Origin: a virus
Virus record (IMG/VR): IMGVR_UViG_3300036818_000127
Span: 1 to 64,000 of that record
DNA: 64,000 nucleotides
Strand: one strand, 5' to 3'
The position numbers and the translations under genes were made by a program. This document shows, one piece after another, positions 49,362 through 56,388 of this stretch (position 1 is its first letter; each line of letters begins with the position of its first letter). The notes under the pieces were generated by a model, which did not search any database, was not told the DNA's origin, and saw only the letters and a program-made list of their open reading frames with translations.

Positions 49362-49393
49362 CAATTTATGGAAGATATGCTCTTTTACCATAA
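49362..49393. promoter_or_regulatory. Extra operator copy in a 9-bp inverted repeat
   Basis: TTTATGGAAGATATG in plus orientation without -35/-10 boxes; AATTTATGG (49362-49370) pairs with CCATAAATT (49385-49393). It lies just upstream of the minus promoter at 49.33 kb and overlaps the end of the helicase gene. Could be a second operator for looping or a terminator stem. Confidence 0.6.
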
Positions 49394-52300
49394 ATTGGTT
49401 TGAACGGCTGCTGCTACCTTTTTAGCTTTCCGTGTCCTCTTCAAGGCATCTCGCTTAGCCCTCAGAGCTGCCCAGGGGTCCTGAGTAAGTGCTACTGGTA
49501 TGATTATCATGGGCTCAACTGATCCCTTCAATGGCTCTGTGGTAATGTCTCCTGCAAGTGGTATCTCCATATCCTCCTGCTCAGGATCGGCATCGGCTGT
49601 GATGTATTCATTCCGTGCAAGGGCTGCTTCCTCAGATGCTTTGAATTGCCTCTGGAGTTCTTCGGCCTCGGCCATCAGGTCGGCTGTGTTATTTTTCCCG
49701 CTATCAAGGGCTTCCTTGACCTGTCGGGCAAGGGCAATTGAGAAGCTACTATCGCTGTCCCCTTCATCTACTCCAAAGGAGACAAGTCCCTCTCCTGGTA
49801 GCTGGCCCTCAACCATAAAGGCAGTTTCCATCTTCCGTGACATTAATAACAAGAGACGCTGCTCCATTGTCGGGTAGACTAATATGATGACCTTGGTGTG
49901 CTTTGTCTGCTTTGGTCTATGTATCCTTCTAAAGGATTGCCGCATCTGGGATGTCGATGTCGGGACCTCAGAACAGATAATCGTGTGGAAGTCTATTAGG
50001 TCGAGACCTACTTGGACCAGGGCGCTATTGCAGATAAGAACATTGCATCCGTTCTCGACATGCTTCTTGAGTACTGCTTCCCTTCCTAATGTATTACCTG
50101 ATCTCAGGATAGCAACCTGGGGGATGTTCCCATTGCGAGGGCGGACGTGAGTCTCTATCAGGGACTTATAGCGGGGCTGGATATCATGCTCCCCTGTATT
50201 TTCGCAGTAGATGATAACCTTTCTGTCCTGCTCCAGCTCCCCTTGGATAATGTCAATTATCCTTTGCTCTTTGGGATAGATCTCTGACTCATCGAGCTTC
50301 CTAGCCGTTCCAAGAATGTAGCCTGTCTTTTTGACTGAGCAGACAGTCTCTTCAAAGGGCATATTAGGGTAGCGCCTCAAACATTGGAACCAAGAACCTA
50401 ATGCCCTCTTATCCCCTAGTACTAGCATTGCAGCTAACTCAGCAGTGATTGTACTCTCAAACGATTTATATGCTTCTTCCAGGGGTCCCGACATTGGAAT
50501 GATGTCTACCTCTTCAGAGTAGGGAGGTAAGTACGGGGCCACATCTTTAAGCTCCAGGAAGGCAGATCGTTCAAACAAAGGCGGAAGGCCATTCGGTGAG
50601 AATGCGGCCATCTCATGTTCTTCTCCACGACCGCTGGACTTTTTCTTGCTTATAGCTCCATCTCCGCCGCTATCTAAGTCATCCTTCTTTTCCTTAATCA
50701 CAGTTTTTCTGGCTCCGTACCGATCAACCCATTCCCTCATGCCATCATAAGAGAATTGCTGGCGGACATCTGGATTAATACTCCAGGCGAAGGGGAATAA
50801 TGATGAGGCATACCCATTACATAAGGTCCCCGTTAGACCTAAGTAGGATTCGCATGCTCCCATCAGGGAACGTCGGGCAAAGTCGAGGGCTGTCCCCTCC
50901 TTCCCTTGGTGGATCTCATCGCTGATCAGGAGTTTGAAGAAACCTGAATGAAACTTTCTAATATAGTCGGCCACGCTGAACCGTCGAAAGCTGGTATCCT
51001 TGACAGTCTTAGGGAGACTTCCAAGGCTGTCTGGAAGAGGGAGGGCAACTACTGCATCGCCACTTCTCAATACTGACTTAGGCTCAAAGTCCTTCCCTGT
51101 CGTGTACTGCCATAAGGGACCACCGCAGGAACCGCACCATCTCTTTTTGTGCTTTTTAGCACTGATCCACAATTCTTGTTCAGTGACGTAAGCTCCTTCA
51201 TCCTCATCCATCTCTTCTTCTATTGAAGAGAGGGCTTTTCCATTTCGCTTCTTGCGTGCTATCTGATCCTTTTTTCTTTTGTAGTCAGGATTGCTTTTCA
51301 TTAAGCGATCAATGCGTGCCTGATCCTTTACAGGAGCAAAACAGCTCGGGCAGCATGGTGTCAATCTAGGAAGTTTCGTTTCCTCGTCATGCTGTACTGC
51401 CACCTTTCCATTCGCATCTAGTGTTCGCATTGGGGAAAGCCGATATGCCAACGTCCAGGCCATACTCAACTTGGCCGTCCCATTAGGGATAATGACTAGG
51501 TGACATGGCTTCTGAGGAAGTGGGCGACCATGCAATTTTGCTTCATCATATTGCTGCCGCCAGTCCTGGAGTTCATAGTCAATCCTTTTGATAACCCTCT
51601 CAATACATCCGACTGCCGACAGTTTCTCGCCTCTCCAGAATGGATCAAATTGCCTTAGCTCTCTTGACTTCTCAGGAGTATCAATTCTCTGAACAACAAT
51701 CGCATGGACATTTGGGATAGTATCCTCTGCCTCGCGTTTCCATTTGTACGCGATGATCTCTGGGACCATCACGACAGCTGGGGAAAGCTCAATCTTCTTA
51801 GCTGTTGAGGGAAGCATGTCAGCACAGCCATTCAGGTCCATATCCCCTAAGAAGAGGGTGGATAGGGATAAGTAGGTCTTGCCAGTCGCCATCTCGGCGA
51901 TCTCACCGACCCTATTCATAGGAGCATGATCTTTCCCTCCGACCATTGCATTCACAATAGCAAGGATAAAGCCTTTCTGTCTACCGAGCGGTTGACGTAG
52001 CATCCGAGAGAAGGCGGCGTTGGCCCAGGGGACTTGAGACGGGCTGTGATAGAGCGGGGGATTGCTCTCTAACAGCTTCTCTGTTAGGGCTCCACCAAAG
52101 TTATCCAGGAAGGAACGAAGAGACATTGTTTCATGGGGAATGCTGAGCATCCCGACCATTGGCCCTGTTTCAATCCTGATAAGCTGACCGAGGGTATCAC
52201 CTTCTGTCATATCGATACACCAGAGGGATGACTCGAAGCTATCACGTTTCTCTGTGATGATATTCTCTTCATCTTCAGAGACCTTGGTCACTTTGCGCTT

Positions 52301-53383
52301 TCTTGAGAAGCCCTTTACAACTACTGTACGGCCATCTTTACCTACAAGATAGGCCCCATTGACTATTCCAGCAGCAGCCATGATGGCCCGATGCCCATCT
52401 TTAAGTGGCTGGACGGGCCGACCAGAGGCATTGCCTCTATCTTGATCAGACGGCCAGTGAAGAGCCTTATATTGCAGTTTGCTATAGACCCCATTCGCTG
52501 GAAGGCTAGCACCCTGCGGAACTGCAAGGAGTGCAGCAGCCTCTTCTGGATCGAACCTGCTCGGAGACCAATACTTGATAGCAGATCTTGCTATGGGGAT
52601 AGAATACTGTCCATATCCATCACTCCGTGAAGTCACAGCCTCGATGGGTGAAATGTCATCATGGGGGTTATCTGTTGTGCCAAGCTCAATGAGGACTTTC
52701 TCTGTAGACCGATCTGATCGCTGGCCGAATCCCTTCTGGGCAATCACGACGACCTGATCAAACATCTCAAACATGGGGACAGGCTTCTCTTTGTTCTCTA
52801 CCATCTCAGGCGTGGCAAAGGGAGTATCAGGGAACCGCAGCACCTTGATGTCGGTGTACCACTGAGAAAGATATGATGCCCCTTTCTCAACGATCCATTG
52901 TGGGACAATCCAAATCAGGACCCCGCCAGGACATAATTTCTTCGTAGTTCGTCTGAGGAAAGTCAATTCTAGCCGCTCGCCGCCGGACTCTTTGTCCCAA
53001 TCATATGGCGGGTTTACGAATGCCAACTGGAACCCGCCATCAAGAGAGTCCCCGCTAGAGATAAGAGACTGGAAGAATGATGCATGCAGGACATCATCTA
53101 GAACTTTCCTCGCAGCCTTTACCCGCGAGATATTGGGCTCGATGCCATGGGTGAGGACTTGAGGGAATGTGTGACAGTAGTGCCACATCTGCTGAATGTG
53201 CTCTCTGTATTCCTTGGCGAGAAGTTCTAAGGCTCTCCCCTTGCCTGCACATGGATCAAGAAACCTCATCTCTTGAGCATCCCCTGATGGGTAGCGGCAA
53301 CTGAGGTATTGAGCTATCATCGATATAACTGGCTCAGGGGTTGGGTAGTACAACCCTTTGACCTGTGATTCTGTCCTAGGCAT
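49385..53383 (-). CDS. Giant DNA methylase-SF2 helicase fusion
   Basis: 1332 residues, AAGGAG upstream. Residues 1-225: class I methylase (DUF6094-like) with 'FLDPCAGKGRALELLAK' and catalytic 'AFVNPPYDW' at 124-127, as in N6-adenine methylases. Near 495: Walker A 'AEMATGKTYLS'; near 820: 'ISDEIHQGKEG' (D-E-x-H) and 'GLTGTLCNG'; near 1140-1160: 'VGLDLIDFHTII' and 'MRQSFRRIHRPKQ' (motif VI). A zinc-ribbon insertion ('CCPSCFAP' ... 'CGSCGGPLW') lies around 670-765. Likely remodels or protects phage DNA, as in anti-restriction or replication. Alternative: part of a defence-like system. Confidence 0.85.
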   Translation of the reverse strand: MPRTESQVKGLYYPTPEPVISMIAQYLSCRYPSGDAQEMRFLDPCAGKGRALELLAKEYREHIQQMWHYCHTFPQVLTHGIEPNISRVKAARKVLDDVLHASFFQSLISSGDSLDGGFQLAFVNPPYDWDKESGGERLELTFLRRTTKKLCPGGVLIWIVPQWIVEKGASYLSQWYTDIKVLRFPDTPFATPEMVENKEKPVPMFEMFDQVVVIAQKGFGQRSDRSTEKVLIELGTTDNPHDDISPIEAVTSRSDGYGQYSIPIARSAIKYWSPSRFDPEEAAALLAVPQGASLPANGVYSKLQYKALHWPSDQDRGNASGRPVQPLKDGHRAIMAAAGIVNGAYLVGKDGRTVVVKGFSRKRKVTKVSEDEENIITEKRDSFESSLWCIDMTEGDTLGQLIRIETGPMVGMLSIPHETMSLRSFLDNFGGALTEKLLESNPPLYHSPSQVPWANAAFSRMLRQPLGRQKGFILAIVNAMVGGKDHAPMNRVGEIAEMATGKTYLSLSTLFLGDMDLNGCADMLPSTAKKIELSPAVVMVPEIIAYKWKREAEDTIPNVHAIVVQRIDTPEKSRELRQFDPFWRGEKLSAVGCIERVIKRIDYELQDWRQQYDEAKLHGRPLPQKPCHLVIIPNGTAKLSMAWTLAYRLSPMRTLDANGKVAVQHDEETKLPRLTPCCPSCFAPVKDQARIDRLMKSNPDYKRKKDQIARKKRNGKALSSIEEEMDEDEGAYVTEQELWISAKKHKKRWCGSCGGPLWQYTTGKDFEPKSVLRSGDAVVALPLPDSLGSLPKTVKDTSFRRFSVADYIRKFHSGFFKLLISDEIHQGKEGTALDFARRSLMGACESYLGLTGTLCNGYASSLFPFAWSINPDVRQQFSYDGMREWVDRYGARKTVIKEKKDDLDSGGDGAISKKKSSGRGEEHEMAAFSPNGLPPLFERSAFLELKDVAPYLPPYSEEVDIIPMSGPLEEAYKSFESTITAELAAMLVLGDKRALGSWFQCLRRYPNMPFEETVCSVKKTGYILGTARKLDESEIYPKEQRIIDIIQGELEQDRKVIIYCENTGEHDIQPRYKSLIETHVRPRNGNIPQVAILRSGNTLGREAVLKKHVENGCNVLICNSALVQVGLDLIDFHTIICSEVPTSTSQMRQSFRRIHRPKQTKHTKVIILVYPTMEQRLLLLMSRKMETAFMVEGQLPGEGLVSFGVDEGDSDSSFSIALARQVKEALDSGKNNTADLMAEAEELQRQFKASEEAALARNEYITADADPEQEDMEIPLAGDITTEPLKGSVEPMIIIPVALTQDPWAALRAKRDALKRTRKAKKVAAAVQTNLW

Positions 53384-54736: not shown

Positions 54737-55378
54737 TTAAGCCCCTTTACGGTTCGCTTGCACTCTCTTATTTAGTTCCGCTATAAGCTTTACCATATCC
54801 CCAAAAGACAATCCTTCTAAATCAACATCAGGTAAATTAAGCATCTGATGCAGCTTTTTTACGCTCGCAATCTGTTGAACCGTAGCTGGTGCTTCTGGAT
54901 CATAGGAGGGCTTGCGTTCTTGACGTTGAACAGGAGCATCGGCCAGCCGCTCGCCTTCCTCTAACTCATCGCCGCAAAACTGAGTTCCATAGCCTAGCCC
55001 GACTAGAGCCCTGCCGATGGCACCTGTCTCTGCCTTCTCTAGGTAGTCAGGGAAGCAGGCCGCATTCTCGGTTTTAGTGCCTGTTGAGCTACCTCCCTTG
55101 CCGTCGGTAACTATTGCCCTAAAGACTGCAACTCCACGGGCTTTCTTGATAACCTTGTCATAGCGGCGCTTCTCATCATTCCAGACACTAACCTCAGTCT
55201 CACACTCTTCCGAGCGATTGAGATCGAGTAACTCAGTCGTGATTGTGCCCTCTGGACATTGCTCTCTAAACCATACCAATCGCCACGCAACGGGGAGGTA
55301 GTCCTTGGGTCCCTGCTGAGACTTGAGCTGAATGATATGAGAATTAGGGTTGAACACTTTATCAATGGTAGTATTCAT
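54737..55378 (-). CDS. Putative single-strand annealing recombination protein
   Basis: 213 residues. 'YLPVAWRLVWFREQCPEGTI' at the start, 'GVAVFRAIVTDGKGGSSTGT' and above all 'YLEKAETGAIGRALVGLGYG' match the core of phage Rad52/ERF/DdrA-like annealing proteins (E-K-A-x-T-x-A-I-G-R-A-L-x-x-x-G-Y-G). A flexible linker and a C-terminal helix follow. It would pair complementary ssDNA in phage recombination or replication. AAAGGAC upstream. Confidence 0.75.
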   Translation of the reverse strand: MNTTIDKVFNPNSHIIQLKSQQGPKDYLPVAWRLVWFREQCPEGTITTELLDLNRSEECETEVSVWNDEKRRYDKVIKKARGVAVFRAIVTDGKGGSSTGTKTENAACFPDYLEKAETGAIGRALVGLGYGTQFCGDELEEGERLADAPVQRQERKPSYDPEAPATVQQIASVKKLHQMLNLPDVDLEGLSFGDMVKLIAELNKRVQANRKGA

Positions 55379-55867
55379 ATCGTCCTTTCTGGAGACCCAT
55401 TCCCTTCAGGGATTGGGAGGAAAGAAACAGCCCGCAGGCTGGATCTATACTGTTCTGTTGCTAGTCCCTTGCGGGAGGGCCTTTTTAGGAGAAAGACCCA
55501 GAAAACTCTTGCTCGATTGCGAGCCGCCGTGTCTAAGCACGGGTGATATGACCCTTCGAGATGGCAATACAGGCATAGGTCCGAGACCGTCTGCTTCGGC
55601 GTGGCAGGTAGTGGTTTAGACTAGGGTGGCATCCAAACATACTTTCGCTACTTCCACTAGCACATAAGCCTGTGGGTTCGCTATTTCTTAGCCCGTATCG
55701 CTGCTGCTTGTGCGGTGAGTTGCCTCTCCGACCAAGCCCTCTAGACAGGAACTTACGTTGCGCTAGCCGTTTCGCAAGCCCCTAGGATTTATCCAGGGGT
55801 TCTTGACTATTTTCTGATCCTTCTCTTTGGGAGGGCTCTTTGACGAATCCTCCCGACAATATACTGC
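55379..55867 (-). ncRNA. Candidate large structured RNA
   Basis: Nearly 490 nt without a coding frame but full of adjacent hairpins. On the minus strand: CCCAATCCC-TGAA-GGGAATGGG (55397-55418), CAGCC-TGCG-GGCTG with a UNCG loop (near 55430), TCCC-GCAA-GGGA with a GNRA loop (near 55470), GCTCG-CAAT-CGAGC, CCGTG-CTTAGA-CACGG, CTTGCG...CGCAA, CCCCTGGATAAATCCTAGGGG (55780-55800) and GGGAGG...CCTCCC (55830-55857). GNRA and UNCG loops appear only when read on the minus strand, the direction of the flanking genes. I cannot place it in a known class; no tRNA, tmRNA, RNase P or group I core was evident. Confidence 0.5.
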
Positions 55868-56358: not shown

Positions 56359-56388
56359 AAGTATAGCATATCTTCCATAAACTGTCAA
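56359..56388 (-). promoter_or_regulatory. Shared operator-promoter, copy 4
   Basis: TTGACA, spacer GTTTATGGAAGATATGC, TATACT on the minus strand; drives 56284 leftward and possibly the candidate structured RNA and annealing protein. Confidence 0.92.

Follow-up and report, generated by a model that had tools for sequence, protein, structure and literature searches.

An intergenic region of some 490 nt in a viral genome raises the question of what so long a sequence without an ORF does between two genes. It lies at positions 55379-55867 of the 64-kb window (the whole stretch of 64,000 nt that was analysed, the first part of IMG/VR record IMGVR_UViG_3300036818_000127), and a sequence-only reading had put it forward as a possible new large structured RNA of the minus strand, to be set beside ornate phage RNAs such as GOLLD and ROOL. 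The 109,417-base record contains terminase, portal and capsid genes, which identifies it as that of a tailed phage. Our data indicate that the region holds a known type of RNA in an unusual form, namely an IsrB-type omega-RNA that stands without its effector gene, an assignment that is well supported by sequence comparison.

That a structured RNA lies on the minus strand was borne out both by folding against shuffled sequences and by helices found in homologues. The minus strand of 55379-55867 folds at -170.1 kcal/mol (z=-2.85) and none of 100 shuffled sequences did as well, while the plus strand folds less well (z=-1.98, with 5 of 100 shuffles as good). The direction claimed for the flanking transcription also holds, both neighbouring genes being read from the minus strand, downstream of a strong promoter-like site (Table 1). 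Only short mechanical ORFs run across the region, in agreement with the earlier statement that it has none, and a protein-coding region was rejected because there is no conserved ORF and the indels between homologues are out of frame, that is, not multiples of three. As to the GNRA and UNCG tetraloops described for this strand, GNRA-type GCAA loops are visible in GAGGCAACUC and CCCGCAAGGG, and a C(UUCG)G loop is clear at the same position in two relatives (L079 and L081, see below).

With Rfam at its curated thresholds, no match was found anywhere in the 64-kb window. A permissive covariance-model search, a check that the sequence-only reading had itself proposed, matched the HEARO model (RF02033), the omega-RNA that guides IscB and IsrB, along 55543-55807 of the minus strand with 33.9 bits. 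The whole model (1-211) was aligned in the same helix order, E was 3.4e-5 when 801 bases were searched and 0.0027 for the 64-kb window, and no other Rfam family reached a meaningful score there; GOLLD and ROOL were rejected, their covariance models being without a match, as were group I and II introns, tRNA and tmRNA. The score lies below the curated HEARO cut-off of 83 bits, and IsrB-linked and other effectorless relatives of the same subtype reach only 41-49 bits, the phage copy being the lowest of the subtype. Since RNAs that adjoin isrB genes also stay below it, a low HEARO score is a property of the subtype, which the cut-off of 83 bits does not cover. An undescribed class of large structured RNA from phages, akin to GOLLD or ROOL, would be in keeping with a window devoid of matches above any curated threshold, but the whole-model HEARO match and the pseudoknots in common with IsrB-linked omega-RNAs speak against it, and the homology to those RNAs already refutes it, so that we give it practically no credence. 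What remains of the earlier interpretation is the large structured RNA on the minus strand, whereas its novelty and its likeness to GOLLD and ROOL have fallen away. This calls for some caution elsewhere, as divergent omega-RNAs without an adjoining effector score below Rfam cut-offs and get taken for new RNAs.

Nine homologues gave a consensus of ten helices with 57 pairs, two of the helices being pseudoknots, and the earlier estimate of at least eight stems therefore holds. In this consensus 97.6% of cells are paired, compared with 36-44% after the partners were slid by 1-3 columns; changes on both sides were seen in 21 of the 57 pairs, compared with 0-6 in the slid controls; and the covariation score was reached by none of 500 shuffles. 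Compensatory changes, the lack of which had been named as an argument against a structured RNA, are present in both pseudoknots. The adaptor pseudoknot between SL2 and SL5 reads CGGC/GCCG in the phage copy and GGGC/GCCC in the relatives L079-L081, and the nexus pseudoknot, which joins SL4 to the region after S2, reads ACCCU/AGGGU and CCCCU/AGGGG, respectively. They are the counterparts of the two pseudoknots so named in IsrB omega-RNAs; the adaptor pseudoknot is kept in these and degenerate in the omega-RNAs of IscB (PMC9581776). The structurally characterized IsrB omega-RNA (8DMB; PMC9581776) also has the same 5' stem, SL1, SL2, SL4 and SL5, as well as the guide at the 5' end and an NTGA motif after the target. 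The phage element differs from it in having no adjoining isrB gene, in whose place it carries a 3' module and a transposon right end, and in standing on a phage record without any RRXRR gene.

The boundaries first given to the region were correct on one side: the element proper covers 55379-55807, while the other 60 nt (55808-55867), the guide among them, form the native leader of the gene downstream. The ends of the element are supported by a right end common to it, to an element at 92.4 kb of the same record and to an IscB transposon (viral contig L023), and by L079-L081, which have the same ends. The S1 stem of the phage copy, read straight from the sequence, forms 7 of 9 pairs, with two mismatches. 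The 3' module, of about 100 nt, contains a conserved hairpin with three compensated pairs and a GNRA-like hairpin; it is kept in the effectorless L079-L081 and missing from the IsrB-linked loci.

Table 1. Features of the element and its surroundings, in window coordinates
Feature	Position	Strand	Remarks
Phage promoter-like site TTGACA-17-TATACT	56360-56388	minus	matches the consensus at 11 of 12 positions; nine near-identical copies in the window
Upstream gene, 138 aa	55868-56284	minus	same direction as element
Native leader of downstream gene, now guide segment	55808-55828	minus	last 16 nt GAAGGATCAGAAAATA; directly 5' of HEARO model start
Effectorless IsrB-type omega-RNA element, 429 nt	55379-55807	minus	left end GTCAAG, right end ...AGAAAGGACGAT
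5' stem S1 region	55744-55807	minus	55799-55807 pairs with 55744-55752; encloses SL1 (55779-55799) and SL2 (55758-55777)
CGGC, SL2 loop	55766-55769	minus	adaptor pseudoknot with GCCG, 55597-55600
ACCCU, SL4 loop	55623-55627	minus	nexus pseudoknot with AGGGU, 55551-55555
3' module	55438-55541	minus	hairpin CCGUG...CACGG and GNRA hairpin CCCGCAAGGG
Terminator-like hairpin CAGCCTGCGGGCTG, then TTTCTTTCCT	55428-55441	minus	first right-end hairpin
Second right-end hairpin CCCAATCCCTGAAGGGAATGGG	55396-55417	minus	other right ends have the same hairpin with different bases
Shine-Dalgarno AGAAAGGA from element right end	55383-55390	minus	motif also in most other right ends
ATGA, start codon of downstream gene	55375-55378	minus	fits IsrB NTGA motif
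Downstream gene, 213 aa	54737-55378	minus	homologue in most Ktedonobacteria, closest 55-67% identity
1332-aa protein with methyltransferase and helicase domains	49385-53383	minus	
Cytosine-5 DNA methylase, 493 aa	40307-41788	minus	
TTGACAGTTTATGGAAGATATGCTATA-type sites	31335, 49323, 53808, 56362, 56484, 59775	minus	
TTGACAGTTTATGGAAGATATGCTATA-type sites	59919, 62421, 63940	plus	

The last 62 nt of the element recur at 89% just behind a second HEARO RNA of the same record (92399-92682, 102.9 bits, above the cut-off of 83). That RNA belongs to a second effectorless HEARO element, IscB-like, which occupies record positions 92399-92815 on the plus strand, beyond the 64-kb window, and stands before an ATGA start codon. 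The shared tail consists of two hairpins and AGAAAGGA, followed by the start codon; it also occurs in two viral contigs, behind an effectorless HEARO RNA in L019, where the motif is AGAAGGA, and behind a complete iscB gene in L023. The last of these occurrences makes the tail the right end of an IscB-type transposon, and its place directly behind the RNA in the window makes the phage element an omega-RNA plus right end without effector gene. The transposon in L023 (IMG/VR 3300035695_000149) has the same right end, with the hairpins and AGAAAGGAC before a start codon, but its omega-RNA is of the IscB type and a complete 433-aa iscB lies between RNA and right end. An initial scan of the viral contigs with a right-end pattern returned unrelated sequences only, and a strict right-end pattern had no match in the genomes.

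The IscB of L023 led to the Ktedonobacteria, of which a single one, K. racemifer, contains 64 HEARO matches. When 47 Ktedonobacteria genomes were searched at the DNA level, the closest relatives, at about 82% identity over 258 nt, were one locus each in K. racemifer (L079), Ktedonobacter sp. SOSP1-85 (L080) and K. robiniae (L081). All three are effectorless and 443-446 nt long, share the left end GTCAA and have a right end of the same kind as the phage element. The next relatives are omega-RNAs of the same genomes that lie directly upstream of genes for RRXRR proteins of 347-354 aa, which are devoid of HNH and for which IsrB is the best PDB match (8dmb, 6e-48); the IsrB of K. racemifer (L165) has 354 aa. 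The isrB-linked RNA loci homologous to the element are L087/L165, L088, L092, L094, L096 and L099, and this neighbourhood assigns the phage element to the IsrB branch. The right end of the element is like those of the IscB-type elements of the same phage and of L023. Two conserved patterns found no further phages with the same subtype, and the phage is most likely one of soil bacteria, with a host among the Ktedonobacteria. Within 60 HEARO loci, mostly from K. racemifer and taken with 3.4-3.7 kb of sequence, an IscB/IsrB match was present in 52 and absent from 8, which is a minimum for effectorless loci since a few of the 52 have only a distant or partial match. Another effectorless HEARO subfamily of K. 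racemifer (GTGAACTACC...CTATATAAA; loci L138-L143, L148 and L153) has different ends, a long 3' part and no obvious placement at start codons.

No RRXRR (IscB/IsrB) domain is encoded in the whole 109,417-base record, and hence there is no adjoining isrB gene, nor is there a Y1 transposase in the phage element or the record. Of six Ktedonobacteria genomes searched for such a transposase, five have one; K. robiniae, the carrier of L081, gave no match. IsrB itself (E<=1e-40) occurs in 3 of the 47 Ktedonobacteria genomes, exactly those three with elements of the same subtype, which suggests that these elements act in trans. The chance of this co-occurrence would be 1 in 16215 if the genomes were independent; as the three are related they are not independent evidence, and the co-occurrence is support rather than proof.

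The element sits between the native leader, which serves as guide segment, and the ATGA start codon of the 213-aa gene. The old Shine-Dalgarno AGAAGGA is contained in the leader segment 55808-55828, and when 55379-55807 is excised in silico, ...AAAGAGAAGGATCAGAAAATA|ATGAATACT are joined, giving an ordinary Shine-Dalgarno and start codon. As it stands, the sequence of the right end supplies the gene with a Shine-Dalgarno of the element's own. All four members of the subtype are followed by RTGA (ATGA for the phage element, L079 and L081, GTGA for L080), and the ATGA at the phage junction fits NTGA, the published target motif (TAM) of DtIsrB (PMC9581776); the alignment of the Ktedonobacteria IsrB to DtIsrB stops before the TAM-reading residues. 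For the insertion shared by L079 and L081, an empty site in SOSP1-85 (L224) aligns without a gap at the junction, so that precise insertion without target duplication is seen in this sibling and extends to the phage copy by homology only. The empty allele L224 has GCGA in place of the target motif ATGA. No empty site of the phage element itself was found in a second genome, no relative of the 213-aa gene and no exact target of the guide was found in the viral contigs, and the rest of the record offers no good target for the guide (best match 4 mismatches in 16). The guide of the element in L019 agrees at 13 of 16 positions with the uninterrupted homologous gene in the phage record studied here; ATGG comes next after the match, which is the best site for that guide in the record.

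A sister effectorless element has multiplied in brp13 to at least 15 near-identical copies of 443 nt (loci L083, L089, L093, L095, L098, L101, L104, L106, L108 and L204-L212). All 15 copies considered stand before ATGG, mostly at gene starts, and each brings AGAAAGGATTTCTT ahead of the start codon. An ORF of at least 70 aa starts at 11 of the 15 copies, where 23% would be expected (binomial p about 5e-5). Of the 9 ORF-start sites with a known left flank, 7 have a Shine-Dalgarno upstream, and of 4 others none has, compared with 14% expected. Insertion directly ahead of a start codon could leave translation intact, because the target motif (ATGA or ATGG) is itself the start codon and a Shine-Dalgarno comes with the right end.

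Taken together, it is quite probable that the phage carries an IsrB-type omega-RNA as a short mobile element whose effector gene was lost. Non-autonomous elements of the IS200/IS605 type have hairpin ends, make no target duplication and need a transposase in trans. The phage element has such ends, would by homology to L079/L081 make no duplication and would depend on a transposase in trans in the same way, but omega-RNA elements differ in carrying an RNA guide, and in the present data no transposase is linked to them. Standalone (trans-acting) omega-RNAs can function with IscB (PMC9581776), and the phage element resembles these in having no adjoining effector, but differs in being of the IsrB subtype, in its location on a phage and in its mapped ends and start-codon insertion site. 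A literature search in which the main subscription papers were out of reach found no effectorless omega-RNA elements with a ribosome binding site. The original report of standalone omega-RNAs is said to be that of Altae-Tran in 2021, from Ktedonobacter racemifer.

An omega-RNA element without a nickase gene, placed exactly ahead of a phage start codon, probably borrows the enzyme of its host. We infer that a Y1 transposase of the host, of the IS200/IS605 type, would insert the element by acting on its ends; the element would then be transcribed with the operon, its RNA cut or terminated near 55430 and loaded into host IsrB in trans. As the native leader is now the guide, the complex would recognize and nick the same gene, where the leader is followed by ATGA, in element-free genomes, and would spare the copy that carries the element, in which GTCA comes next after the guide. 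Nicking only of element-free copies would favour the retention or spread of the element among phages, a drive-like role modelled by analogy on TnpB-type elements, which bias inheritance by cutting copies without them (PMC11870625). The carrier would be kept unharmed by an insertion that falls between Shine-Dalgarno and start codon and replaces the former, so that the downstream gene would still be translated. We put forward only tentatively, and with clearly less than even confidence, this idea of a guide-only selfish element whose omega-RNA enlists host IsrB to home into competing phages in which the gene is uninterrupted, or to exclude them. Should the mechanism as a whole hold, the minimal RNA-guided mobile unit would be a guide RNA and two DNA ends, the host would provide both enzymes, phages would be vehicles of such elements, and IsrB, an enzyme of poorly known biological role, would have a natural trans-acting guide RNA.

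The main rival reading is decay of a once complete transposon, according to which the effector of an IsrB or IscB transposon was deleted and a non-functional omega-RNA has been kept by chance. This would account for the two S1 mismatches, for a HEARO score that at 33.9, compared with 43-49 bits, is the lowest of the subtype, for the occurrence of at most one clear copy of the subtype per genome and for the lack of a target for the guide in the sequences searched. However, the same effectorless architecture, with the extra 3' module and this kind of right end, has been kept at 82% in three bacterial genomes, where L079/L081 and L080 stand at different insertion sites; the phage copy retains both pseudoknots and every helix other than S1; and the sister element of brp13 is effectorless and has nevertheless multiplied. 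We therefore regard decay as unlikely. Less likely still, indeed improbable in our view, is an adopted regulator, which would bind with host IsrB to the leader or promoter of the gene in other replicons or act in cis as a leader of the 213-aa gene. By construction the guide is the gene leader, and the RNA lies in the operon directly before the start codon with its own Shine-Dalgarno, as such a role would have it, but the guide bears no resemblance to the leaders of the host genes homologous to the 213-aa gene, and from one relative to the next the element stands at different genes, which leaves no conserved regulatory target.

Apart from the effectorless elements, the record encodes, beyond the window, a TnpB/Cas12-like protein of 563 aa with a Cas12f1-like zinc domain (record positions 105024-106715, minus strand; L006:6024-7715). 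It reaches 70.8 of the 100 bits of the NCBIfam TnpB cut-off, has weak matches to CasX and, judged by eye from its RuvC-III region (CGYTTDVGQQSGINI), may be without the third catalytic aspartate. Within the 64-kb window, nine copies of TTGACAGTTTATGGAAGATATGCTATA or near variants are present where none is expected by chance, and these probably form a phage promoter series.
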